Below are positions 4,921-16,978 of a stretch of DNA of 64,000 nucleotides, one piece after another (within the stretch, counting starts at the first letter, position 1; every line of letters begins with the position of its first letter). The stretch lies in assembly GCF_901538355.1 (NCBI RefSeq), contig NZ_LR593887.1, forward strand, positions 4,440,920 through 4,504,919, written 5' to 3'. The DNA is from Tuwongella immobilis (GTDB lineage Bacteria; Planctomycetota; Planctomycetia; Gemmatales; Gemmataceae). The translations under genes were made by a program, and so were the position numbers. Below the pieces are notes generated by a model. It did not search any database and was not told the DNA's origin. It saw only the letters and a list, made by a program, of their open reading frames with translations.

Positions 4921-6261
4921 ATGCGATTGGCGATCCCGGAACTCGCGCTCGTTCTCCTCGTAGGGCCCTCTGGCGCGGGGAAATCGACCTTCTCGCGGAA
5001 GCATTTCCGACCTACGGAAATTCTCTCCTCCGATTTTTTTCGGGCAATCGTCTGCGATGATGAAACCAACCAATCCGCCGGACGCGATGCGTTCGATGTC
5101 CTGCATCTGGTCGCCAGCAAGCGATTGGGCCGTGGCAGACTCACCGTCATTGATGCCACCAATGTCCAAACCGAGGCCCGGCGACCGCTGATCGCCATGG
5201 CGCGACGCTTCCACGTTCAATCCGCTGCAATCGTATTCGATCTTCCCGAGAGCGATTTTCTCGCCCACAATCGCATGCGACCGGGTCGCCAGGTCGAGCC
5301 GCACATCATTCAGCATCAAATGCGACAGATGCAATCCGCCATCAATCGACTGCCCGAAGAAGGCTTCTCGGTCATTCACACCCTGCGCACGGTCGATGAA
5401 GTCAACCAAGCCTTTCTCGTCCGCGAGCGCTTACCGGTGAATCGTCGGCACGATTTTGGCCCGTTCGACATTATCGGCGACATTCACGGTTGCTTGGATG
5501 AACTGCGGCAACTGCTCGAAAAACTCGGCTACGCGCCGCACGAAACCACCGACGACGATGGCCGCCCCGTCTGGGCTGTCACCCCGCCAACCGACCGCAA
5601 ACTGATTTTCCTAGGCGATTTAGTCGATCGCGGGCCAGATTCCGTTGGTGTCCTGCGACTGGTCATGCGAGCCGTCCGCGAAGGGGCTGCGCTGTGTGTG
5701 GCGGGGAATCACGATCACAAACTGCTGCGAGCGTTGCGTGGTCGCGTGAGTAATTTTTCGCACGGATTGGCCGAAACCCTGGAGCAAGTGCGCGGCGAGC
5801 CAGACGGATTCATCGAACGAATCGACTTATTCCTGGCCGATTTGCCCAGTCACCTGATGCTGGATCGAGGCCGATTGGTGGTAGCCCATGCGGGGTTGAA
5901 GCAGGGGCTGCAAGGTCGCGTCTCGGATCGGGTGCGGGATTTTGCCCTGTATGGCGAAACCACCGGGGATATGGACGAATCCGGGTTGCCCGTGCGCATC
6001 AACTGGGCGGCGGGCTATCGCGGTCGGGCAGCAGTCATTTATGGGCATACGCCCGTGGTCACACCCACTTGGCAGAACGAAACCCTTTGCATCGACACCG
6101 GTTGCGTCTACGGCGGATCGCTGACGGCGTTACGCTATCCGGAACGGGAGTTGGTGGATGTCCCCGCGGCGAAAATGTACAAGCCGCCGAAACGGGCATT
6201 CGCAGACGGCATTCCTGGGGTGTTGCCCCCGCCGCCGGATGCCGATCATCCGCACGATTAA
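4921..6261 (+). CDS. Polynucleotide kinase-phosphatase (Pnkp-type, without ligase domain)
   Basis: 446 residues. The N-terminal P-loop kinase has GPSGAGKST (K21, S22), D38 and an NRMRPGR lid (R118-R123). The central calcineurin-type phosphatase domain carries D187 and H189 in GDIHG, D233 and R237 in GDLVDRG, N263 and H264 in GNHD, H323 in AHAG, H376 in GHTP and D392. These positions coincide with the numbering I recall for Clostridium thermocellum Pnkp, so both activities are probably intact: 5'-OH kinase and 2',3'-phosphatase healing of broken RNA. The usual C-terminal adenylyltransferase/ligase half (about 390 residues) is absent; the gene stops cleanly and no ligase gene follows. The start at 4921 places the P-loop at the family position. 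Confidence 0.9.
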   Translation: MRLAIPELALVLLVGPSGAGKSTFSRKHFRPTEILSSDFFRAIVCDDETNQSAGRDAFDVLHLVASKRLGRGRLTVIDATNVQTEARRPLIAMARRFHVQSAAIVFDLPESDFLAHNRMRPGRQVEPHIIQHQMRQMQSAINRLPEEGFSVIHTLRTVDEVNQAFLVRERLPVNRRHDFGPFDIIGDIHGCLDELRQLLEKLGYAPHETTDDDGRPVWAVTPPTDRKLIFLGDLVDRGPDSVGVLRLVMRAVREGAALCVAGNHDHKLLRALRGRVSNFSHGLAETLEQVRGEPDGFIERIDLFLADLPSHLMLDRGRLVVAHAGLKQGLQGRVSDRVRDFALYGETTGDMDESGLPVRINWAAGYRGRAAVIYGHTPVVTPTWQNETLCIDTGCVYGGSLTALRYPERELVDVPAAKMYKPPKRAFADGIPGVLPPPPDADHPHD

Positions 6262-6287
6262 TCGAGCGATTCAATCGGGTGCAACAA

Positions 6288-6316
6288 CCGGGATCTTCCC
6301 GAAGGAAGAATCCCGG
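6288..6316. terminator. Hairpin between convergent genes
   Basis: Arms CCGGGATCTTCC and GGAAGAATCCCGG pair with one bulged base around a CGAA loop. It sits between the converging kinase-phosphatase and peroxiredoxin genes, so it may end transcription both ways. There is no T-tract. Confidence 0.5.
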
Positions 6317-6340
6317 AAGAAGCCGCGGACCGGAACCGGA

Positions 6341-6931
6341 TCAATGATTGGCTTTGCTGAAGTAGGCCTTCGATTCCGAGACGGTCGGCTTGATCGTCAA
6401 CGAACCGGGCTTCCAGTTCGCCGGGCAAACTTCGCCGTTGGCTTCGAAGAATTGCAGCGCATCCAACAGGCGGATCGCTTCATCGACGCTGCGTCCCAAC
6501 GGCAGATCGTTGATGAGCGCATGGCGGACGATGCCTTCTTTGTCGATCAGGAACAAGCCGCGCAACGCCACGCCAGCTTCTTCGATCAACACGCCGTAAT
6601 CGCTGCTGATTTTCTTGGTCAAATCGGCGATCAGCGGGTACTTCAAACCACCCAATCCGCCTTCGGCGCGGGATTGCTTGATGAACGCCAGGTGGGTGAA
6701 TTCGCTATCCACCGAGACGCCCAACACTTGGCAGTTCCGCTTTTCAAATTCTTCGACGGCATCGCTGAACGCGATGATTTCCGTCGGGCAGACAAACGTG
6801 AAGTCCAACGGATAAAAGAACAGCAAAACGTACTTGCCCTTGTAATCGGCCAAGCTGACGGTCTTGAATTCTTCGTTCACCACGGCTTTGGCGGTGAATT
6901 CCGGTGCGGGCTTTTGCACAACAACGGCCAT
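6341..6931 (-). CDS. Typical 2-Cys peroxiredoxin (AhpC/Prx1 type)
   Basis: 196 residues. Peroxidatic Cys48 lies in FTFVCPTE and resolving Cys169 in GEVCPANW, so it should reduce hydrogen peroxide and organic hydroperoxides as a cytosolic homodimer or decamer. The chain also has a GGLG loop (residues 91-94) and ends in AYFSKANH, the YF-motif C-terminal helix known from eukaryotic peroxiredoxins that are easily over-oxidised. The start at 6931 follows GGGAGAA with good spacing; an upstream in-frame ATG at 6979 would add 16 residues not seen in the family. It is divergent from the ROK kinase gene. No reductase gene is nearby. Confidence 0.95.
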
Positions 6932-7145
6932 TCGAACATTCTCCCAATTGATCCGATCCGGCCCACCAGCACGGTGCATTGTGAGCTATTCTATTTGTAG
7001 GCATTTGTCGTGATGCTGGGGAGAGATTTCGCGGATTCCACGATCGGGGATTTTTTCCGACTCGCAGGAATTGACGATCGGGCGGGAAACAGCCATCTTG
7101 GTAAGGCATCCCGATTTCCGAATTTTCCGAAGGGTGATTGCAAGT

Positions 7146-8135
7146 ATGGCATCCGAATCACGCGATGGATACTGGCTGGGAGTCGATCTGGGCGGCACGA
7201 AAATTCTTGCCGGTCTCTTCGATTCGAATCTGAAACTCATCGCTCGCACCAAGCAAGCGACCGCAGCCGACCAAGGTGGCGATGCCGTCGTCAGCCGCAT
7301 TAGCCGCGCGGTGGAAGAAGTCATCGAGAATGGCCGCATCGAGCGATCGGAAATCCGGGGGCTCGCACTCGGGGTGCCCGGCCAAATCGAACCCAAGACA
7401 CGAATCGTCCGCTATGCTCCGAATCTCGCCTGGCGCGATTTCGCCGTCTTGCCCGCCCTGCCCGAGACATGGCATTGGCCGATTTATCTCGAAAACGATG
7501 TTCGCATGGGCACTTACGGCGAATATGCCTGCGGTGTCGCCAAAGGATCTGACAATGTTTTGGGAATCTTTGCGGGCACCGGCGTGGGTGGCTGTTTGAT
7601 TCTCAACGGCAAGCTGCACACCGGCTTCCTCGGTCACGGCGGCGAAATCGGCCACCTCATCATCCATTACCGCAAGGGGCATTCGCTCGAAGGAATCGCC
7701 GGACGGAAATCGCTGATGAAACGAATCGGCGACCTGCTTGCCGACTCGCCCAAACGGGTCCGCAAGGAATGGAAGAACATCGATCTCGCCTCCGTCAAAT
7801 CGTCATTACTGGCCGAATTCTACCAGAAAGATGATCCAATCGCCGTCACGATCATTGATGAAGCCGCCAAAGCACTCGGCGCGGCGGTGGGCGGCTGCAT
7901 CAATCTGCTAAGCCCCGAAGTGATCGTCATCGGTGGCGGAGTCGCGGGCGCACTCGGCGAAAGCTACCTGGAACGCATTCGGGAAATCGCCATGCGATAT
8001 GTGCTGCCCGGTGCCGCCGATGGGGTGCGGATTGTGCCCGCGTCGCTGGGAGATGATGCGGGGATTGTCGGCTGTGCCGCTTACGCTCAGGCGAATGTCG
8101 CAGCTGGCCTGCCCGGTCAGCGAGTCAAGCCGTAA
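7146..8135 (+). CDS. ROK-family sugar kinase (glucokinase-like)
   Basis: 329 residues. The ATP-binding start GVDLGGTK (phosphate-1) and FAGTGVGGC (phosphate-2) are clear, the catalytic base Asp is in LENDVRMG, and an adenosine-type segment VIGGGVAG follows. It probably phosphorylates glucose or a related hexose with ATP. Unlike most ROK proteins, the Cys-rich zinc motif (CxCGxxGC) after GGEIGH is missing: the region reads GHLIIHYRKGHSLEGIAGRKS with no cysteines. The start at 7146 was chosen because family members begin close to the DLGGTK motif. It converges on the hybrid kinase gene 33 bases away. Confidence 0.88.
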   Translation: MASESRDGYWLGVDLGGTKILAGLFDSNLKLIARTKQATAADQGGDAVVSRISRAVEEVIENGRIERSEIRGLALGVPGQIEPKTRIVRYAPNLAWRDFAVLPALPETWHWPIYLENDVRMGTYGEYACGVAKGSDNVLGIFAGTGVGGCLILNGKLHTGFLGHGGEIGHLIIHYRKGHSLEGIAGRKSLMKRIGDLLADSPKRVRKEWKNIDLASVKSSLLAEFYQKDDPIAVTIIDEAAKALGAAVGGCINLLSPEVIVIGGGVAGALGESYLERIREIAMRYVLPGAADGVRIVPASLGDDAGIVGCAAYAQANVAAGLPGQRVKP

Positions 8136-8167
8136 CCCCTGATCCAATCGAATCTTCGGGAAACGCC

Positions 8168-10222
8168 TTATCCGACTTCGATGGGCCAATTGGCAAGCAC
8201 CGCTTCCAGTTGGCCCAAGTCGATCGGCTTGACCCAATGCCGATCAAACCCCGCCGCTTGCGACAACGCCTGCTCCGTCGCCACACCATAGCCGGTCATG
8301 GCGATGAGTTCGATGCGAGCTTCTCCAAGCCCGGCTTCCGCTTCCCATTGGCGAATCCGCTTGGCCAATTCATACCCGCTGAAATCCGGCAACCCGATGT
8401 CGATCAAGGCGATGTCGGGCCGCACGCGCTGAATCAGCGTCAACCCATCTCGAGCAAGCCCGGCGGATTCCACCGTGTGCCCCCAAATTTGCACCAACGA
8501 TTGCAGCATCTTCCGACCATCGGCATGATCTTCCACCAAGACGACTCGCACCGGTCTGGGCACTTTCGGCAGCATCGCCGGCTTGACTGTCGCATTTGCA
8601 ACCACTTCTGGGACAACAGGTTGAGTTGGGGCAGCGATGCGCGGCAACCGCACCGAGAAGCGACTGCCCTGCCCCAGACCAGCGCTCCAGGCATGGAGTT
8701 CGCCGCGATGCAATTCGGTTAACTGTTTCGCCAATGTCAGACCGATTCCGAGTCCGCCGCGCTCCCGAGCGGTGGCCGAAATCTCCACACCAATGCCCGC
8801 AAAGAGTTGCTGCAATTGCACTTCGGACATACCGATGCCAAAATCGATCACCTCCACCGTCACGACATCCGACCTGGGGTGAACCACCAGACGAATCGAC
8901 TGTCCCGAATCGCTAAATTTCGCCGCGTTGTGCAGCAAATTGCCGAACACTTGCTCCAATCGCCCGGCATCCGCATCAACCCAAATCGGCTCCATGGGCG
9001 GCGAATAGTCCAACGATTGTTGCCGCGACTGCCAATCCGACTGGCTGGTCTGAATCGCATGTTCCAAGATCGGCTGGAGCATGGTGGGCTGGCATTCCAA
9101 GCGGATTTGCCCACGGGTCAGCCGCGACGCTTCCAGCAAATCATCCACCAAGCGGGCCATTTGCTGCATTTGTCGTTCGGCAATCTGCACACTCATCGGC
9201 GGGGAGGCGGCGGGAAATTCGCTGCGATGCAATTCCAAGGCATGGCGGGCGGCGGACAGCGGATTGCGGAGTTCGTGCCCCAGCATCGCCAAAAATTCCA
9301 ACCGACGTTGATTCAATTCCTGCGATTGTCGATATAATTCGGCGTTGTGGAGCGATGCCGCAACCCGTTGAACGAAATTTTCGATTAACGAACCATCCGC
9401 TTCTGGAAATCGGGCACCACTCACTCGAAAGATCGTCATCACGCCGAAGATTCGCCCGGCCTCGCGCAGTGGCAAGCAACAGGCGAGACATTCCGGGTCT
9501 GGTCCCCAATCGCCGGCTCGTCGCAACAGCGGTTGTGGACTGCCGAGCGCATCTGCAATCCAGGATAAGGTTTGCGATGAATAGTCGAAGTCGCTCGCCG
9601 CGCGGGATTGCCAAGCGGCTTGGCGATCAGGTCGGGAATCGAGCCGCAGCACATTCCGCCATTTGGAATCAACCAAGCGATCCGCGATGGATTCGGTTCG
9701 CGTGATTGGCATATCCACCCGCACGGCGATGCCCAGAAATTCGATTGCCAATTGGGCCGCGGTCGTCAGGATCGTCTGTTCGTCTAAACTTTGCGAGAGA
9801 ACCCGACTCGCCTCCGCCAAAAATCGCAAACTCTCTTCCAATTGTTTGCGGACAGTGATTTCGCGGAGCGAAACGAGAATTGCGGGGGCGGCTTCCCAGA
9901 TGATGCCGACCGAGCGAAGTTCCGCCGTGCGAATCTGCCCCGATCCGCGTTGCGGCAGCAGGTCGATTTCGCTGGTTTCCCCCGGTGCCACGGGCCGTCC
10001 GAACGGTAGATTCTCCAGTTGATCGATCGGGAACCCCAACAATTCGGCAGCCGCAGGATTCGCAAATCGAATCATTCCCTCGCTACAGAGGACGAGCACA
10101 CCATCGGCGATGCGCTCGACCAGCGAGCGGAAAACCGATGCGCTCGCTTCCAAGGCCAATCGAAACTGTTCGACCGTTTGGAGTTTCGATTGCTCAGCCG
10201 ACTGTCGTTCCGGTAGGGCCAT
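8168..10222 (-). CDS. PAS-GAF hybrid histidine kinase with receiver domain
   Basis: 684 residues, no membrane segment. Order: PAS domain (about 25-125), GAF-like domain (about 150-290), H-box GHELRNPLSAARHA with H316, HATPase domain with N, G1 (DFGIGM) and G2 (GGLGIGLTLAKQL) boxes, and a C-terminal receiver with acidic pair VEDH, phospho-acceptor D608 in LIDIGLPD, and Lys in VKPID. It is probably a cytosolic sensor that autophosphorylates and relays to its own receiver. The start at 10222 follows GAGG by 9 bases and overlaps the end of kaiC by 29 bases, so the two are translationally coupled. Last gene of the Kai-type set, so probably the output or input kinase of that system. Confidence 0.92.
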   Translation of the reverse strand: MALPERQSAEQSKLQTVEQFRLALEASASVFRSLVERIADGVLVLCSEGMIRFANPAAAELLGFPIDQLENLPFGRPVAPGETSEIDLLPQRGSGQIRTAELRSVGIIWEAAPAILVSLREITVRKQLEESLRFLAEASRVLSQSLDEQTILTTAAQLAIEFLGIAVRVDMPITRTESIADRLVDSKWRNVLRLDSRPDRQAAWQSRAASDFDYSSQTLSWIADALGSPQPLLRRAGDWGPDPECLACCLPLREAGRIFGVMTIFRVSGARFPEADGSLIENFVQRVAASLHNAELYRQSQELNQRRLEFLAMLGHELRNPLSAARHALELHRSEFPAASPPMSVQIAERQMQQMARLVDDLLEASRLTRGQIRLECQPTMLQPILEHAIQTSQSDWQSRQQSLDYSPPMEPIWVDADAGRLEQVFGNLLHNAAKFSDSGQSIRLVVHPRSDVVTVEVIDFGIGMSEVQLQQLFAGIGVEISATARERGGLGIGLTLAKQLTELHRGELHAWSAGLGQGSRFSVRLPRIAAPTQPVVPEVVANATVKPAMLPKVPRPVRVVLVEDHADGRKMLQSLVQIWGHTVESAGLARDGLTLIQRVRPDIALIDIGLPDFSGYELAKRIRQWEAEAGLGEARIELIAMTGYGVATEQALSQAAGFDRHWVKPIDLGQLEAVLANWPIEVG

Positions 10223-11723
10223 TCGTGTCATCCTCGCGGAACATTCCTTGAATCCGCTCGATCTCGGGAGGTGGCCCGACGTGCGCAAATGTCCCAGCGA
10301 GAATGCCGGTGACGTTGCGGAACGGCTTGCCAATGTGCATGCCACGATGATCGATGGTCAACTCGCGGATATCCTTATCATGCATCGAGCCGCGCATTTT
10401 CAGGACCGTCAACCCCCGCCGCATCTCGCCAAACACCTCCACATACCGCAGTAAAATGATCGAATCGGTAATGGTGGAGATATGCGATTCCGTCACCGAC
10501 GTGCCCCCCAGCAGGCTGGCAGTGGTGGCGGTAAACATACCGACAATCTCTTGCTGCTTCACGAATGCAGTCACACCAATGACGAATTCGCGGAAGGTTT
10601 TTGAAGTGGAGACGCGTTCCAATGCCGTCAGGCTATCGACCGCAACCCGTTGTGGGCGATAGCGTTCGATCTCCGTCTTCAACTCGATGAGGTGGTCTTC
10701 GAGTGTGCGGGCTTCGGGATACAAGCAGATGATTTTGAGTAACCCGCGCCGCTCCATCGCCTCGAAATCCATCCCCCAACCGGCGGCGTTGCGAAACAAC
10801 TGGTCGCGACTCTCTTCGAAGGCAAACAGCAGACAGCGATCGCCGGCTTCGACTCCGCCGGTGACAAAGTGCGATGTCAGAAGCGTTTTGCCAGTGCCCG
10901 TTGGCCCCGAAACGAGAATGATCGAATCTCGATAGAATCCACCTCCGCACATGAGGTCGATTTCCGGGGAACCGGAGCTGAGTCGTGCATTCGAGGAGCG
11001 TTGCCGGAGTTCCATCGCCGACAATGGCAGAACAATGATCCCATTGTTGGAGGTGATGGTAAACGGAAACTCGCCTTTTTGATGCGAGGTTCCGCGGAGT
11101 TTGAGAATTTCGATCGTGCGGCGGCGTTTTTCCATCTCCAATACATTACGCAGCAGCACGACATTGTCGGCCACGAATTCTTCGATTCCGTACCGCGAAA
11201 GCGAGCCGTTTTCCTCGACGCGCTCGGAGGTAATCACCGTCGTCACGCCCAGTGCTTTGAACGTGTGGATCACGCGAAAGAGTGCCTGGCGGATCATCTG
11301 CGGATTGTGAAATTGGGCGAAAATGCCCGACAGCGAATCGATGGCGACTCGTTTGGCCCCGATTCGGGTGACGGCGTATTCGATTCGGGACAGCAACCCG
11401 CCCAAATCGTAGTCGCCGGATTCGATCGGTTCATCATCGACGGCGGGCGAGGCATCCACGAACAACCATTGTTGCGATTGTTCCCAGGCCTCGATTTCCC
11501 AGCCGAATCCTTGCATGTTCATCCGCACATCGTGTGGGGATTCCTCGAAGGTGATGAAGACGCCGGGTTGTTGATGCCGGAGGATTCCTTCGGCCAGAAA
11601 TTGGCAGGCGAAGACGGTTTTCGCACTGCCTGCGGTTCCGGAAATCAGCGTCGCTCGCCCACGGGGCAGTCCACCTTCACTAATCAGGTCAAAGCCCGAG
11701 ATTCCGGTTGCAATCTTCTCCAT
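10194..11723 (-). CDS. kaiC: KaiC-type double-domain RecA ATPase
   Basis: 509 residues, close to the 519 of Synechococcus KaiC. Two RecA-like halves: CI with GTAGSAKT (29-36) and catalytic pair FEES; CII with GPTGTGKT (K279, T280) and FEES. The CII autophosphorylation segment SVTESHISTITDS is preserved: T411, S416 and T417 have the same spacing as T426, S431 and T432 of cyanobacterial KaiC. It is therefore expected to autophosphorylate and autodephosphorylate and to bind KaiB through CI. The C-terminal tail after HIGKPFRNV differs from the cyanobacterial A-loop region. It lies 39 bases after kaiB on the same strand. Confidence 0.95.
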   Translation of the reverse strand: MEKIATGISGFDLISEGGLPRGRATLISGTAGSAKTVFACQFLAEGILRHQQPGVFITFEESPHDVRMNMQGFGWEIEAWEQSQQWLFVDASPAVDDEPIESGDYDLGGLLSRIEYAVTRIGAKRVAIDSLSGIFAQFHNPQMIRQALFRVIHTFKALGVTTVITSERVEENGSLSRYGIEEFVADNVVLLRNVLEMEKRRRTIEILKLRGTSHQKGEFPFTITSNNGIIVLPLSAMELRQRSSNARLSSGSPEIDLMCGGGFYRDSIILVSGPTGTGKTLLTSHFVTGGVEAGDRCLLFAFEESRDQLFRNAAGWGMDFEAMERRGLLKIICLYPEARTLEDHLIELKTEIERYRPQRVAVDSLTALERVSTSKTFREFVIGVTAFVKQQEIVGMFTATTASLLGGTSVTESHISTITDSIILLRYVEVFGEMRRGLTVLKMRGSMHDKDIRELTIDHRGMHIGKPFRNVTGILAGTFAHVGPPPEIERIQGMFREDDTNGPTGTTVG

Positions 11724-11762
11724 GGTGTTCGTCCCGAACAGGTGGTTCCGCGCGGCTCACCC

Positions 11763-12062
11763 TCATCCCGAGGGCGATTGCGAATCATCCAACGGCTTCA
11801 AATCCAATCCCAATAACACTTGTTCGACATCGGAAAGATCACCGATGATGCGGCGGATCGGCTGCGGTAATTCTTTAATGAGCGTGGGGGTGGCCAAGAT
11901 GCGTTCGAGTTCCGCCACTTGCGGCCGTTCGAGAACATCGATGATTTCAATTGTGTAATCGGGCAGCGCGGTCGATTCACAAATCCGCTTCAGATTCGCA
12001 ATGGCTCGATGCGAACGAGGCGATTGGCCAGTGACGTACAACTTGAGCAGATACTTACTCAT
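11763..12062 (-). CDS. kaiB: KaiB-type protein
   Basis: 99 residues, nearly the length of cyanobacterial KaiB (102). The thioredoxin-like start YLLKLYVTGQSPRSHRA and the later DVLERPQ and ATPTLIK segments are characteristic of the family. KaiB is a fold-switching protein that binds the KaiC CI ring and, in cyanobacteria, sequesters KaiA. The ATG at 12062 overlaps the stop of the upstream PAS protein by 8 bases, which fixes the start and implies co-translation. It is followed by kaiC. The family assignment is firm; whether the pair runs a rhythm is unknown. Confidence 0.95.
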   Translation of the reverse strand: MSKYLLKLYVTGQSPRSHRAIANLKRICESTALPDYTIEIIDVLERPQVAELERILATPTLIKELPQPIRRIIGDLSDVEQVLLGLDLKPLDDSQSPSG

Positions 12063-13020
12063 CCGCCGACTCCCGGGTACGGTTCCAATCGGTCCCGACC
12101 GACTGCGAGGGGGACGGGAGTAGGGGCTTATCCCGTGGAGCCTGGGCATCGCGCGCCTGAGAATACGCCGTCGATGGACGCGGTGACTGCATCTGTCTCC
12201 GATAATAAGATACCATATTCCCCATTAATTCCAGCAGGACGAACCGTGATTCTTCGACAAACGCCTTCATTCGCACCACGGTCAAAATGGGGCGTTTCAA
12301 TTCCAAGACGGCGGCATGCAACTCAATGACATCGCGTGGCCCGGCATGGAGTTGTCCCAATCGCTCGGCCAATTCACGCAGTGATTCCGACACCCGGTGC
12401 GACACGCGAAAAGACTGTTGCTCCAACGCCCGATCGACCATCGCCGCGTATGCCAGCCGCAATTCCGCGAGTTCCGCCACCGACTCGCTTCGCCGATCGG
12501 CTTCGACTGGCTCGCGGCTGGCCATGACGCGTCCGGGAGCGGTCGCCAATTCGGTCAGTTGATCGAGTTCGAGACGTAACTGCTGCACCATCAATTCGTT
12601 ACTGCGAGCGGTTTGTTCGGCTCGTTCGGCGCGGCGGATGGGTCGCAGATCGTACACCACAATGACTAAACCGGCGCTGATCCCCTGCTCTAACAGCGGA
12701 CTGCAACAATATCCCACCGGAATCGGCCAGCCGTTTCGGGGTGTCAAAAATCCGTTGGAACCGCGTCGCACCGATTGTCGGCTAAGCGTCTCTGCAACCA
12801 ATTCACGGAGCGTGATGGGGCTTTGCGAATCGACAATCTGAAACGGGAAGCAATCGACGAGCGGTTTGCCGAGCAGCTGTTGATTGGACAGATCGAGAAG
12901 GGCTTCGGCGGCTGGGTTGACCAGACGGACGATTCCAGCCGCATCCGCAGCACAGATGCCCTCGCCAAGATAGCGGGTAATCGATTCAACCCAGGAAGTG
13001 GACGGTTCTGAATCGTTCAC
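12055..13020 (-). CDS. PAS protein with C-terminal KaiA/RsbU-like helical domain
   Basis: 321 residues with the GTG start chosen here. A PAS domain fills about 15-125 (GEGICAADAAGIVRLVNPAAEALL is its opening), a short coiled coil follows, and residues about 187-277 form a four-helix module (LAYAAMVDRALEQQ to VSYYRRQM, with DVIELHAAVLE in the middle) whose pattern recalls the RsbU N-terminal/KaiA C-terminal domain fold. A Pro/Arg-rich tail ends the protein. It sits directly upstream of kaiB with an 8-base overlap, where a KaiA-like activator might be expected. The start is uncertain: an ATG at 13200 would add 60 low-complexity residues across a hairpin. PAS is sure, the KaiA/RsbU relation is inference. 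Confidence 0.75.
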   Translation of the reverse strand: MNDSEPSTSWVESITRYLGEGICAADAAGIVRLVNPAAEALLDLSNQQLLGKPLVDCFPFQIVDSQSPITLRELVAETLSRQSVRRGSNGFLTPRNGWPIPVGYCCSPLLEQGISAGLVIVVYDLRPIRRAERAEQTARSNELMVQQLRLELDQLTELATAPGRVMASREPVEADRRSESVAELAELRLAYAAMVDRALEQQSFRVSHRVSESLRELAERLGQLHAGPRDVIELHAAVLELKRPILTVVRMKAFVEESRFVLLELMGNMVSYYRRQMQSPRPSTAYSQARDAQAPRDKPLLPSPSQSVGTDWNRTRESADE

Positions 13021-13074
13021 AGGACGATTCCGGGGGATGAAAGCCGCAACATGGGGAATGGGTGGATGAAATCT

Positions 13075-13103
13075 GGGATTGGGAGGAAACTCCCCCCAAT
13101 CCC
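13075..13103. other. Hairpin in the leader of the PAS gene
   Basis: GGGATTGGG and CCCAATCCC arms flank a short loop. It lies between the CsrA-receiver gene and the GTG start at 13020 of the PAS gene. It could be an attenuator or processing site inside the five-gene transcript, or partial termination after the first gene. It also argues against the long upstream start of the PAS gene. Confidence 0.45.
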
Positions 13104-13230
13104 TCACCAACCTGGGAGGGGACCGCCGCGAATACTGCCCTGTCCTTGGGTCGTCGGTAGTCGAACCACCGATTCGCGGAACGATATCCCCCCACTCCAT
13201 CGCACCGGTGGACGGTTTGCAGGCCTGGCA

Positions 13231-14013
13231 TCAGCCAGCCAGCACGAGATTCAAATCTTGCAACAACGATTGCGGATCGAGCGGTTTGCGATACCAGCGA
13301 TCAATTGGCGTCATCGCCAACGACGGCTGGAAGCGTTCGCGATCGTGCCCGGTCATGGCACAAATTTTGACGCGATTCCAATCGGGGTGCTGCCGAATGG
13401 CTCGAATGGTACTCGGACCATCATATCGCGGCAGAATCATATCGATTAGCACCACATCGGGCTGTCCGACCCGCTTGAGGCACTCCAGCGCATCTTGCCC
13501 ATCTCTCGCAGTCAGCACATCGAACCCGGCGAGCCGAAGAAAGCCCGCCAGCAGTTCGCGCTCGTTGGAATCATCTTCCACAATCAGCGCCCGAGTTGGC
13601 TTGGTATGGGCCGCCTGGGATGGAACGGGCGTTGGCCGCTGATCGAGGCTATCCCGCATGGCACGCAATTCGAATTCGAGCCGATCCAGGGTATCTCGCG
13701 TCGAATCGTATTGACCGATTTCGATTTGTTTTCGCAACAGTGCCAGTCCCACGGTCGTGGCATTGAGTCGGTTGCGGAGATCGTGACGGAGTTCACGATC
13801 CATCGCCAGTTCCGCACGTTGGGCGGCGATTTCGGTTGCAATCCGTTGAGCAATCGCGGGTTGCTGCAACACTTCTTCTCGGAAAACCGCCACATCCGGA
13901 GGGGCATCAATCCCGATTCGAACCACGCCCGGCTTGATTGCGACAATCTGAATCGACGTGTTGATAATGGGCAGCACGAGGCGCTGATTCGGTCGTCGTG
14001 ACAGCACTAACAT
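13231..14013 (-). CDS. CsrA domain fused to H-box region and response-regulator receiver
   Basis: 260 residues. Residues 1-55 are a CsrA domain: MLVLSRRPNQRL start, a VRIGIDAP core and the FREEV end with the RNA-contacting Arg. Residues about 56-130 are helical with an H-box-like segment LRHDLRNRLNATTVG (H77), like a histidine kinase dimerisation helix but without an ATPase domain. Residues about 148-260 are a complete receiver: VEDD, phospho-acceptor D191 in LIDMILPR, Thr in AMTGH, Lys in RKPLD. CsrA normally binds GGA motifs in mRNA leaders, so this may be a phosphorylation-controlled translational regulator. AGGAAG, 8 bases upstream, fixes the start at 14013. First gene of the Kai-type set. 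Confidence 0.9.
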   Translation of the reverse strand: MLVLSRRPNQRLVLPIINTSIQIVAIKPGVVRIGIDAPPDVAVFREEVLQQPAIAQRIATEIAAQRAELAMDRELRHDLRNRLNATTVGLALLRKQIEIGQYDSTRDTLDRLEFELRAMRDSLDQRPTPVPSQAAHTKPTRALIVEDDSNERELLAGFLRLAGFDVLTARDGQDALECLKRVGQPDVVLIDMILPRYDGPSTIRAIRQHPDWNRVKICAMTGHDRERFQPSLAMTPIDRWYRKPLDPQSLLQDLNLVLAG

Positions 14014-14458
14014 GAGTATCGCTTCCTGTTCGCCCCATGTTGAAGGCAAGCACGGAGGTGTGAGCGGGCTATTTCGAACGCCGGTTTGCAGTTGCTCGAT
14101 GATCGACCCGAACTCACCCCCTTCACCTCAAGTTTCGGGTGAAGTCGGGAATCCGTTGCCACGAGATTTTGCCGATCGCTTTGATCCATTTCTACATTCA
14201 AGGTTACTCGGTTTCCTCCCTGATTCAAGCAAAAATCCGCTTATGGGATCGATTTGGGACCAGGCATTCCCCCCTATTCCCCCGATGATTCGACTTCCGA
14301 ACCAGTCAACAGCAACAATCGCCAATACTTCTGAGCATCGAAATCGCCTGCATTGTGGCGGTGGTGGTCAATTCGTGTCGTGATCGCTACGTTACCGGCA
14401 GCGGCAGGATTGGCCACCGCCCACGCACCCGCCTGCGGCGTTGTCAAGGATCGAGCGA
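14014..14458. other. Divergent intergenic region, 445 bases
   Basis: Lies between the CsrA-receiver gene (minus) and the GH57 gene (plus) and must hold the promoter of the Kai-type set. A hairpin with 7-base arms CTTCACC/GGTGAAG lies at 14121-14144. I find no clear -35/-10 pair and no supported small gene. Confidence 0.5.
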
Positions 14459-16978
14459 ATGACGCGATTCATCTGCATTCATGGGCACTTTTATCAACCG
14501 CCTCGGGAAAATCCCTGGTTGGATGAGATTGAACTCCAAGACTCGGCCCATCCGTTCCATGATTGGAACGAGCGCATTTCCACGGAATGCTATGCCCCGA
14601 ATGCGGTTGCGCGGATTCTCAATCCGGCTGGCAAGATTGTCCAGTTGAGCAACAACTACTCAAAAATTAGCTTCAATTTCGGACCAACGCTGCTGTCCTG
14701 GATGGAACAGCACGCGCCGGATGTCTACGCGGCGATTCTCGAAGCCGATCGATTGAGCATCGAACGATTCGGCGGCCATGGCTCCGCAATGGCGCAAGTG
14801 TATAATCACATGATTATGCCGCTTGCCAATCGCCGCGACAAAATCACGCAGATCGTCTGGGGCATTCGCGATTTCGAGCATCGCTTTGGCCGCATGCCGG
14901 AAGGGATGTGGCTGGCCGAAACCGCCGTCGATCTGGAGACGCTCGATCTGCTGGCCGAACATGGCATCCGCTTCACGGTATTATCTCCGTATCAGGCTCA
15001 TTGCATTCGACCGCTGGCCGGAGTCGCCCCGCTCGCCGGTCCATCGGCGGAAGATCCAGACCGAACCACGGGTGCCCTTCCCATTGACCTGATGTGGCGC
15101 GAAGTGACCGGGGCGCGAATCGATCCCAAGGAACCGTATCTGCAACGGCTCCCCTCGGGTCGCACGATTGCGATTTTCTTCTACGATGCGCCAGTGTCGC
15201 AAGCGGTTGCCTTTGAACGACTTCTGGCCAAAGGCGAATACCTCGTTCAACGTCTGATGGGGGCATTTTTGCCGGATCGGGCCGCGCCGCAACTGGTGCA
15301 TATCGCCACCGACGGAGAATCCTACGGGCACCACTCCGCGCATGGCGATATGGCGCTGGCCTATGCGCTGCATTCGATCGAGACACAAGGCGTGGCCCAA
15401 CTGACGAATTATGGCCAATATCTGGAGATGTTCCCACCCACGATGGAAGTGGACATTCTCGAACGAACCGCCTGGAGTTGTGCCCATGGCGTGGACCGTT
15501 GGCGGGCCGATTGCGGCTGCAATTCGGGGCGTCCGGTCTGGCGGCAGCAGTGGCGAGGGCCGTTGCGAGCGGCATTGGATGGGCTGCGCGATCATGTCGG
15601 GGCCGCGTTTGAGCGCGAGGCGGGAAAGATTCTGCGCGATCCATGGGCCGCGCGCGATGATGCCATTTCGCTGCGATTGCTCGGCACGCCGGAAGAACGT
15701 GCGGCATTTGTTCAACGACATGCCCGCAGCGGATGGACCAGCCACGACCGCGTGCGAGTCATGCAATGGATGGAACTCCAACGCAATGCCCTGCTCATGT
15801 ATACCTCGTGCGGCTGGTTCTTCGACGATATTTCCGGCATCGAAACGGTGCAGATTCTCATGTACGCCGGTCGCGTGCTGCAACTCGCCCGGGAACTCGG
15901 CGTCGCCGACTACGAACCGACATTTCTGCAACAGCTGGAGTTGGCCCCTAGCAATGTCCCCGAACATCGCAATGGCCGAGTGGTGTACGAAAAATTCGTC
16001 GCCACCGCGCCGCTGACCTGGGAGAAAATCGCGGCCCACTATGCAATCTCGTCGCTATTTGAAGAGTACGGCCCAGTCACGCAGTTGTTCGGGTATCTCG
16101 CGGAAATCGCCGACTACGAATCACTCGAAGTCGGAAAAGTCCGATTGGTTCTAGGTCGGGTGCGACTGACCGAGGAAACCACGGCGGAATGCGCACAATT
16201 GATGTTCGGCGTGTTGTACTTTGGCGATCATAATTTGAACTGCGGCGTGAAACTCGATCCCGGCGATGCCGCCTATCAACGCATCCGCCAACAGCTTGGC
16301 GAATGCTGGTCCCGATTGGATTATCCGCAGATTATCCGCTTGATGGACCGCGAATTTGGCCAAGCCGCGTATTCGCTCGCATCGCTGTTTCGAGACGAAC
16401 AACGGCATGTGCTGCGCCGTCTGCTCAAGGCCAATCTCGCGGAAACCGAAGCGACATATGCCCGCATCGTGCATGAACATCAGCCGTTGATGCGGTTTTT
16501 GCAGCAACTCAACGCCCCGCTGCCTCGAGCGTTTATGCTCGCGGCAGAGCATTGGCTGCATAGCAATTTGCGCCAGGCAATGGATCACGAATCGCCCGAT
16601 TTTGACACGATTCAAGCACTGATTCGCGACGCGGTTCAGTGGGGAATCCACTTGGAACAAGCGGAATTGGCCTACCGATTCGGGAAGCTGTTGGCCCGTG
16701 TCGCGGAGCATTGGCATGCCGATCCCACGGCGGTTGACCGCATGCAATTGCTGGGGCGCGGAGTTTCGTTGGCCCGCAGTTTGCCGTTTGTGGTCGATTT
16801 GTGGAAGGTGCAGAATCTCGTCTTTCGGAAGATTCAAAGCCTGTTCCCACGCATTGCCTTGCAAGCCGCCGGGCATCGTGAGTCAGCCCAACAATGGGTG
16901 CAGGAGTTCACGCAATTGGCGGAGCGTCTCAATCTGGATATCGAATTTGCTCGAGAAATTGGGGGGATTGCCCGTTGA
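14459..16978 (+). CDS. GH57-family glycoside hydrolase with DUF3536 C-terminus
   Basis: 839 residues. The family 57 regions are visible: HGHFYQPPRENPW (7-19), a GMWLAETAVD segment with the likely nucleophile E154, and an ATDGESYGHH segment with the likely acid/base D285. The C-terminal half matches the DUF3536 type of GH57 protein, including the MLYTSCGWFFDDISG segment. GH57 enzymes act on alpha-1,4 or alpha-1,6 glucans; this one is probably an intracellular glycogen/starch-active enzyme, though the exact reaction is not shown. There is no signal peptide. The ATG at 14459 follows AAGGA; a TTG 18 bases upstream is less likely. Confidence 0.9.
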   Translation: MTRFICIHGHFYQPPRENPWLDEIELQDSAHPFHDWNERISTECYAPNAVARILNPAGKIVQLSNNYSKISFNFGPTLLSWMEQHAPDVYAAILEADRLSIERFGGHGSAMAQVYNHMIMPLANRRDKITQIVWGIRDFEHRFGRMPEGMWLAETAVDLETLDLLAEHGIRFTVLSPYQAHCIRPLAGVAPLAGPSAEDPDRTTGALPIDLMWREVTGARIDPKEPYLQRLPSGRTIAIFFYDAPVSQAVAFERLLAKGEYLVQRLMGAFLPDRAAPQLVHIATDGESYGHHSAHGDMALAYALHSIETQGVAQLTNYGQYLEMFPPTMEVDILERTAWSCAHGVDRWRADCGCNSGRPVWRQQWRGPLRAALDGLRDHVGAAFEREAGKILRDPWAARDDAISLRLLGTPEERAAFVQRHARSGWTSHDRVRVMQWMELQRNALLMYTSCGWFFDDISGIETVQILMYAGRVLQLARELGVADYEPTFLQQLELAPSNVPEHRNGRVVYEKFVATAPLTWEKIAAHYAISSLFEEYGPVTQLFGYLAEIADYESLEVGKVRLVLGRVRLTEETTAECAQLMFGVLYFGDHNLNCGVKLDPGDAAYQRIRQQLGECWSRLDYPQIIRLMDREFGQAAYSLASLFRDEQRHVLRRLLKANLAETEATYARIVHEHQPLMRFLQQLNAPLPRAFMLAAEHWLHSNLRQAMDHESPDFDTIQALIRDAVQWGIHLEQAELAYRFGKLLARVAEHWHADPTAVDRMQLLGRGVSLARSLPFVVDLWKVQNLVFRKIQSLFPRIALQAAGHRESAQQWVQEFTQLAERLNLDIEFAREIGGIAR

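Follow-up and report, generated by a model that had tools for sequence, protein, structure and literature searches.

A Kai Gene Set Led by a CsrA-Receiver Protein With a Predicted Phosphoacceptor Hairpin in the Planctomycete Tuwongella immobilis

The best known output of Kai proteins is transcriptional and runs through SasA and RpaA in cyanobacteria. Outside the Cyanobacteria, the order KaiA-like, KaiB, KaiC has been published for the KaiA3-KaiB3-KaiC3 sets (PMC11372060), and kaiABC, called an operon typical of cyanobacteria, has been reported in Planctomycetaceae bacterium TMED241 (PMC8113500), while a 2017 paper states that KaiA is found only in Cyanobacteria (PMC5520375); CsrA is already listed among the output domains that response regulators carry (PMC2222644). 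Here we describe five genes in a window of 64,000 nucleotides (the whole stretch of DNA analyzed; contig NZ_LR593887.1, positions 4,440,920 to 4,504,919) from Tuwongella immobilis, in which a Kai core stands between a CsrA-receiver gene and a hybrid histidine kinase gene. The Kai core is of a known kind, and the unusual part is the first gene, whose product carries a modeled histidine-kinase-type hairpin between its CsrA and receiver domains (CsrA-DHp-REC). We give roughly even odds (about 0.5) to the reading that the set is a Kai module, timer or state-switch, whose output via CsrA is post-transcriptional; the arrangement suggests a timer in bacteria with direct action on mRNA.

Compared with Synechococcus elongatus KaiABC, the locus shares KaiC (1tf7, 1.9e-173 in a PDB search), KaiB and the C-terminal fold of KaiA, and it differs in a KaiA-like protein without a recognised pseudo-receiver, in a kinase that is a PAS hybrid rather than of the KaiB-like SasA type, and in having no RpaA-type gene in the set. 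With the KaiA3-KaiB3-KaiC3 sets it has in common the gene order, a KaiA-type C-terminal domain on a varying N-terminus and the KaiC phosphosites, whereas the PAS domain and lack of a recognised receiver in its KaiA-like protein, the hybrid kinase and CsrA-DHp-REC within the run, and the planctomycete host set it apart (PMC11372060). The TMED241 genes likewise come from a record named as planctomycete, and the accessible part of that source mentions no CsrA gene (PMC8113500). CsrA-output response regulators (PMC2222644) resemble the product of the first gene in combining a CsrA domain and a receiver; distinctive here are the H-box hairpin between the two and the linkage to Kai genes. Within the open-access literature, a scope that makes for limited evidence, no description was found of a Kai set with a hybrid kinase and a leading CsrA-receiver gene. 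The first-pass annotation, made from the sequence alone, was right that Kai genes are known outside Cyanobacteria; its further remark that no planctomycete Kai set with a CsrA-receiver output was described agrees with this search, although both CsrA-output regulators and the order of the Kai core were already in print (PMC2222644; PMC11372060).

The Kai Core and the Hybrid Kinase

Five tightly packed open reading frames (ORFs) on the minus strand were confirmed on the single 6.69 Mb contig of the host genome, in the order first read: CsrA-receiver, PAS/KaiA-like, KaiB, KaiC and hybrid kinase. The first and third junctions are gaps of 30 bp and 39 bp, and at the second and fourth the genes overlap by 8 bp and 29 bp, lengths computed with starts at 13200, 12062, 11723 and 10222 and subject to alternative starts for the PAS gene (13020) and the kinase (10231); the early description of tight packing with overlaps at two of the four junctions is borne out.

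The KaiC protein (509 aa; 10194..11723, minus strand) matches Pfam at 6.9e-118 and exceeds both NCBIfam KaiC cut-offs (709.5 versus 408 bits and 646.4 versus 546 bits). In the PDB search its closest solved relative was 8zn5 (4.7e-203), followed by the S. elongatus protein and by the 8db3/8fwi type at about 1e-101. This double-domain KaiC has Walker A motifs at residues 29 and 273, the paired glutamates lie in TFEESP (58) and FAFEESR (300), and the stretch TESHISTITD, which begins at residue 411, holds all three phosphosites, T411, S416 and T417 (T411 to T417, 10473..10493, minus strand), which we take to be T426, S431 and T432 of S. elongatus. The adjoining kaiB (99 aa; 11763..12062, minus strand) encodes a protein above the Pfam cut-off (7.1e-27) and clear in the PDB search, with an NCBIfam score of 105 bits slightly below the cut-off of 110. 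The genome holds one KaiB, one double-domain KaiC and three weak further KaiC-type matches. The Kai core in the window is well supported, and the KaiB/KaiC pair with its full complement of phosphosites stands as first annotated.

The kinase (684 aa; 8168..10222, minus strand) combines PAS, HisKA (H316), HATPase and receiver (D608) domains, all above Pfam cut-offs. It had been called a PAS-GAF hybrid kinase; the GAF domain is a marginal match below the cut-off, and the remainder of that description holds.

The gene before kaiB (381 aa; 12055..13200, minus strand) encodes a PAS protein (Pfam 1.9e-8) that was first read as carrying a KaiA/RsbU-like domain. Over the last 100 residues it shares 38-45% identity with its counterparts in seven further sets from Gemmataceae, and the N-terminus of these proteins varies from a short stretch (genus g16) to PAS (window), REC-GAF-PAS (genome G006) and PAS without a Pfam-recognised receiver (G004); in G005 it is interrupted by a contig end. 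An N-terminal NarL-type receiver, a feature of KaiA3, was not recognised in the window protein, which shows PAS only; the G006 relative does have a receiver. A profile of 56 rows (75 segments thinned to 60, 52 of these being combined with 4 from elsewhere) placed KaiA chains in the top 8 of 13 rows against PDB, with a best value of 7.3e-4 and RsbU next at 0.079, whereas an earlier profile of eight rows only had KaiA at 0.41, behind an acetyltransferase at 0.21. The domain, at about residues 236-342 (12175..12495, minus strand), is predicted with a mean predicted local distance difference test score (pLDDT) of 89; with this model, the top four Foldseek matches are KaiA (probability 0.97-1.00), as are the top seven VIA-align entries (Z 11.0-12.0), followed by an unrelated fluorescent protein at 9.7 and RsbR-type proteins at 9.3-9.6. 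Two results weigh against the assignment: taken alone, the window protein has no Pfam KaiA match and only RsbU_N at 0.056, and the KaiA matches in Foldseek have weak E-values, from 0.058 to 0.39 and none below 0.001. Single members of the profile match RsbU_N in 9 of 56 cases and KaiA in 8 of 56. For a helical bundle, a Z of 11-12 does not settle the matter; it is the profile, the fold and the gene position that jointly support the view that the protein ends in a predicted KaiA-fold domain, and the early reading is sustained in its KaiA-like form.

The CsrA-Receiver Protein and Its Hairpin

The first gene (260 aa; 13231..14013, minus strand) had been described as an unusual CsrA-receiver fusion, and Pfam confirms both domains (CsrA 8.5e-14, Response_reg 1.7e-17); what that description overlooked is the segment between them. 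Against the NCBIfam CsrA equivalogs the protein scores below the curated cut-offs (41 versus 73 and 38.4 versus 70.1 bits). In the AlphaFold2 model, CsrA (residues 1-51) and the receiver (140-259) are joined by a helix at 52-98 and a second at 102-124, forming a hairpin encoded at 13642..13860 (minus strand). A linker profile of 37 proteins aligned to HisKA segments with 96.4% probability in hhalign, the HisKA side consisting of 58 distinct sequences taken from the same loci, and H77 (codon 13783-13785) fell on the H-box histidine (RHDLRNRL versus GHELRNPL). As controls, none of eight column-shuffled versions exceeded 0.9%, nor did the linker read in reverse, and KaiA-like reached 0.1%. On model and profile together, the linker is assigned as a histidine-kinase-type phosphoacceptor hairpin, giving the architecture CsrA-DHp-REC. 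With the whole model, the 50 Foldseek matches listed were all of receiver type.

Conservation across 39 CsrA-REC proteins extends over all three parts: the receiver phosphoacceptor D191 (13441..13443, minus strand) is kept in all 39, K243 and L83 in 38, R45 of CsrA in 37, H77 in 36 and N81 in 34. These counts omit four copies without a matched CsrA start (L072, two in L217, and L220), all of which are in the tree; at L072 (7200-8269, G004:C39), the CsrA start lies just upstream in a different frame. A further locus, L097 (6343-7101, G075:C195), encodes an altered CsrA part without the conserved arginine and without H77. The remaining six CsrA matches of the T. immobilis genome are short frames of 73-117 aa.

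Because the residue that follows H77 varies among the 39 proteins and no HATPase match was found in this protein with Pfam, the hairpin running directly into the receiver, self-phosphorylation is unlikely; a relay or a phosphatase role would fit. Phosphotransferases of the Spo0B and ChpT type have a degenerate ATPase domain after the hairpin. CsrA-DHp-REC would share with them a phosphoacceptor histidine on a histidine-kinase-type hairpin in a protein without kinase activity, and differs in lacking even the degenerate ATPase domain and in having the hairpin fused between CsrA and a receiver. The protein is notable by itself, as a response regulator that possibly carries its own phosphotransfer histidine.

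Distribution and Linkage

To place the set among its relatives, species genomes were scanned for KaiC, and the 80 best matches (60-69% identity) came from Chloroflexota, Cyanobacteria, Nitrospirota, Pseudomonadota, Planctomycetota and others. In 71 of these 80 loci, the KaiA-like domain occurs in the Kai cluster at E <1e-10, usually immediately before kaiB; the cyanobacterial member L104 also has a NarL-type receiver match. This core is widespread and has the arrangement of the published KaiA3-KaiB3-KaiC3 sets. Among the same loci, the CsrA-REC profile matched over its whole length only in L103, L118 and L142, taken as G038, G037 and G040 of genus g16. Two candidates for CsrA-REC beside Kai in another phylum were rejected, L106 being a receiver-ATPase fusion that lacks CsrA and L223 a lone receiver.

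Within the family (95 genomes), CsrA-REC at E 1e-30 is found in 25, KaiB in 15 and the window type of KaiC in 8, namely T. immobilis, G004, G005, G006 (split over two frames) and G037-G040. Conservation of the gene order in other Gemmataceae had been named beforehand as a check: each of the four g16 genomes has the five genes in the same order as T. immobilis, with KaiC 63-65% identical between the two genera, and this order is not found in G004, G005 and G006. G004 and G006 retain the KaiA-like, KaiB, KaiC and kinase genes; in G005, the Kai contig breaks inside the KaiA-like gene, and the CsrA-REC contig has no KaiA-like gene alongside. Where comparable, the KaiC and CsrA-REC trees agree, with the window beside G005 and G004 beside g16 (the KaiC tree, 95 rows thinned to 70, leaves out L067, the split KaiC of G006, and the duplicate records L103, L118, L142 and L171).

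In a sample of 397 genomes of the class, the KaiA-like domain occurs in 17, a CsrA-REC match (E 1e-40) in 98 and both in 12. CsrA-REC is present in 12 of the 17 genomes with the KaiA-like domain and in 86 of the 380 others (Fisher p 5.8e-5, not corrected for kinship), and by genus in 7 of 8 versus 56 of 177 (p 0.0024). At least two of the 98 matches are partial (G033, at a contig end, and G601, receiver part only), and in these class and phylum samples few candidates were scored per genome (six for CsrA-REC). In the phylum sample (n = 392), whole-length CsrA-REC matches were seen in T. immobilis and in 15 more genomes, every one from its class, and the remaining matches listed cover the receiver part.

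A genome from a different family of the class, G310, joins Kai genes and CsrA-REC in another order, within 10.3 kb on one strand (L206, G310:C41:470000-489000, at 5648-15944): CheB-CheR-PAS-kinase-REC, KaiA-like, KaiB, KaiC, PAS kinase, REC, REC-GerE and CsrA-REC. Its KaiA-like protein has a receiver match slightly below the cut-off, its KaiC groups with that of G208 apart from Gemmataceae KaiC (Shimodaira-Hasegawa-like approximate likelihood ratio test 90, quick tree), and its CsrA-REC stands apart from those of the Gemmataceae on a long branch of unsure placement. Judging from these sequences, Kai and CsrA-REC seem to have been brought together at least twice in the class. The same cluster also places a DNA-binding (REC-GerE) and an RNA-binding (CsrA-REC) output next to a single Kai set.

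We fetched 42 CsrA-REC loci. In 21 of them CsrA-REC adjoins a kinase of more than 1,150 aa, in 4 the adjoining kinase is shorter, and in 2 it is truncated where the contig ends; the rest comprise four g16 Kai sets, G310 and 10 loci without a labelled kinase. Many of the large kinases show a CheB motif, and the two that were scanned (L206, L210) have the architecture CheB-CheR-PAS-HisKA-HATPase-REC. CsrA-REC and a CheB-CheR-PAS hybrid kinase are adjacent in several planctomycete families (L071, L074, L076, L207, L210, L215, L217, L220 and others), a signalling pair of interest by itself. At 1e-30, no CheB-CheR part is listed for T. immobilis or the g16 genomes, G005 (75% complete) has one fragment and G006 a 39% match; since this part was not found in the genomes with the five-gene order, the kai kinase could plausibly take its place as partner of CsrA-REC there. 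The core of the kai kinase is 35-39% identical to CheB-CheR kinases next to CsrA-REC. Kinase relatedness was dropped as proof of a Kai-CsrA pairing, as the kai kinases of genomes in which no CsrA-REC was found (G051, G072) are equally similar.

A Possible Route From Kai to CsrA and Its Alternatives

If the set works as one module, the PAS/KaiA-like protein would promote autophosphorylation of KaiC, and KaiB would bind phosphorylated KaiC and sequester the KaiA-like protein. The PAS hybrid kinase could sense the Kai state, its own input or both, and autophosphorylate at H316, from which phosphate would pass to D608 in its receiver, to H77 in the CsrA hairpin and to D191 in the CsrA-protein receiver, whose phosphorylation may alter mRNA binding by CsrA. 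The sequences establish the genes, folds, key residues and linkage behind this scheme, and the module might oscillate, count down or simply sense state. Hybrid kinases usually require a phosphotransfer histidine. The kai kinase is without a recognised free partner of this kind because the two Hpt domains found in the T. immobilis genome belong to a CheA-type protein and, next to it, an Hpt-STAS protein; no free Hpt protein was recognised there, though divergent ones could escape the search, and the Hpt domains of g16 genomes lie within large frames. H77 could fill the vacant place. We tentatively propose, at less than even odds, that the Kai clock output is a four-step phosphorelay which ends in CsrA-DHp-REC as last histidine and last aspartate and acts on mRNA, with a linkage assembled at least twice in one planctomycete class. 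If true, the coupling of Kai proteins to an RNA-binding regulator would mean a clock or timer beyond the Cyanobacteria that controls translation and the stability of mRNA, and so compact a relay protein brings the link within reach of experiments on five purified proteins.

The first-pass annotation saw here a complete timer or state-switch, with sensor, oscillator, relay and translational output. KaiA-like, KaiB, KaiC, kinase and CsrA-receiver genes do form one set; their coupling is an inference, drawn from linkage, architecture and the want of a recognised free Hpt protein in the genome, because the five-gene order occurs in only two of the eight class genera with the KaiA-like domain, 86 of the 98 CsrA-REC genomes of the class have no KaiA-like match, and CsrA-REC adjoins another histidine kinase, frequently a CheB-CheR hybrid, in 27 of the 42 fetched loci. 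CsrA-REC is, on the second of these counts, not a dedicated clock part; conversely, 5 of the 17 KaiA-like genomes are without it. Further observations weigh on the same side: CsrA-REC and the KaiA-like gene lie on different contigs in G004, G005, G520, G534 and G585 and, in G006, at a distance of about 20 kb with opposite orientation, the g16 CsrA-REC gene ends 237-398 bp ahead of the KaiA-like ORF, leaving space for a separate promoter, and the kai kinases of G051 and G072, where no CsrA-REC was found, are just as similar to the window kai kinase, so that kinase pairing is not diagnostic. The genus and genome counts, the frequent CheB-CheR neighbour and the g16 gap also favor a rival view in which the genes are neighbours rather than partners, with a Kai module that has another output beside a CsrA-REC that answers to its own kinase elsewhere, the two co-located by chance or at a common insertion place. 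We consider this unlikely, given that T. immobilis and the four g16 genomes keep the same order despite the divergence of their KaiC, that G310 unites both gene groups in a different arrangement, and that the usual CheB-CheR partner seems to be missing where the order is kept.

Even with Kai and CsrA coupled, the module need not keep time. KaiC may follow ATP/ADP and PAS inputs, without rhythm or count-down, and CsrA activity would be set by the energy or stress state; the occurrence of PAS in the KaiA-like protein as well as in the kinase, the single KaiB and single double-domain KaiC of the genome, and the hourglass and stress roles described for non-cyanobacterial Kai homologs (PMC11372060) favor such a sensor, which we regard as possible but short of probable, since a KaiA-fold protein is present, unlike in KaiA-free hourglass systems, and the KaiC phosphosites are all retained. 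A circadian character has roughly the same likelihood as an hourglass or an energy-state switch. The relay is open to a different challenge, namely that the hairpin mediates dimerisation and acts as a phosphatase on the receiver of the same protein, which the kinase histidine would phosphorylate directly. An asparagine at the H-box position four residues past the histidine is tied to phosphatase activity in kinases, and N81 occupies that position in most of the 39 proteins, three of which lack H77. An acidic residue neighbouring the H-box histidine is needed for autokinase activity, and in these proteins it is this neighbour that varies, while H77 and L83 are the best kept hairpin residues. 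Together with the kinase's need for a phosphotransfer histidine in a genome with no recognised free Hpt, this conservation leaves the phosphatase role a somewhat doubtful alternative to the relay through H77.

Outside the set, the five genes have a GH57/DUF3536 protein (14441-16978) on one side and a ROK kinase (7071-8135) on the other, tempting as carbon genes given CsrA's name; both were rejected as members of the system, as neither adjoins the set in g16, where the four neighbourhoods hold no match above 60 bits. A second, divergent Kai type occurs in the family at L092-L096 (G023, G027, G051, G072 and G089), with KaiC 34-37% identical to that of the window, one or two KaiB-like genes and mostly a hybrid kinase; no KaiA-like domain was found in G023 and G072. 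In Nitrospirota (L132) and in Calditrichota (L145), two KaiA-like, KaiB, KaiC sets lie in proximity within each locus.

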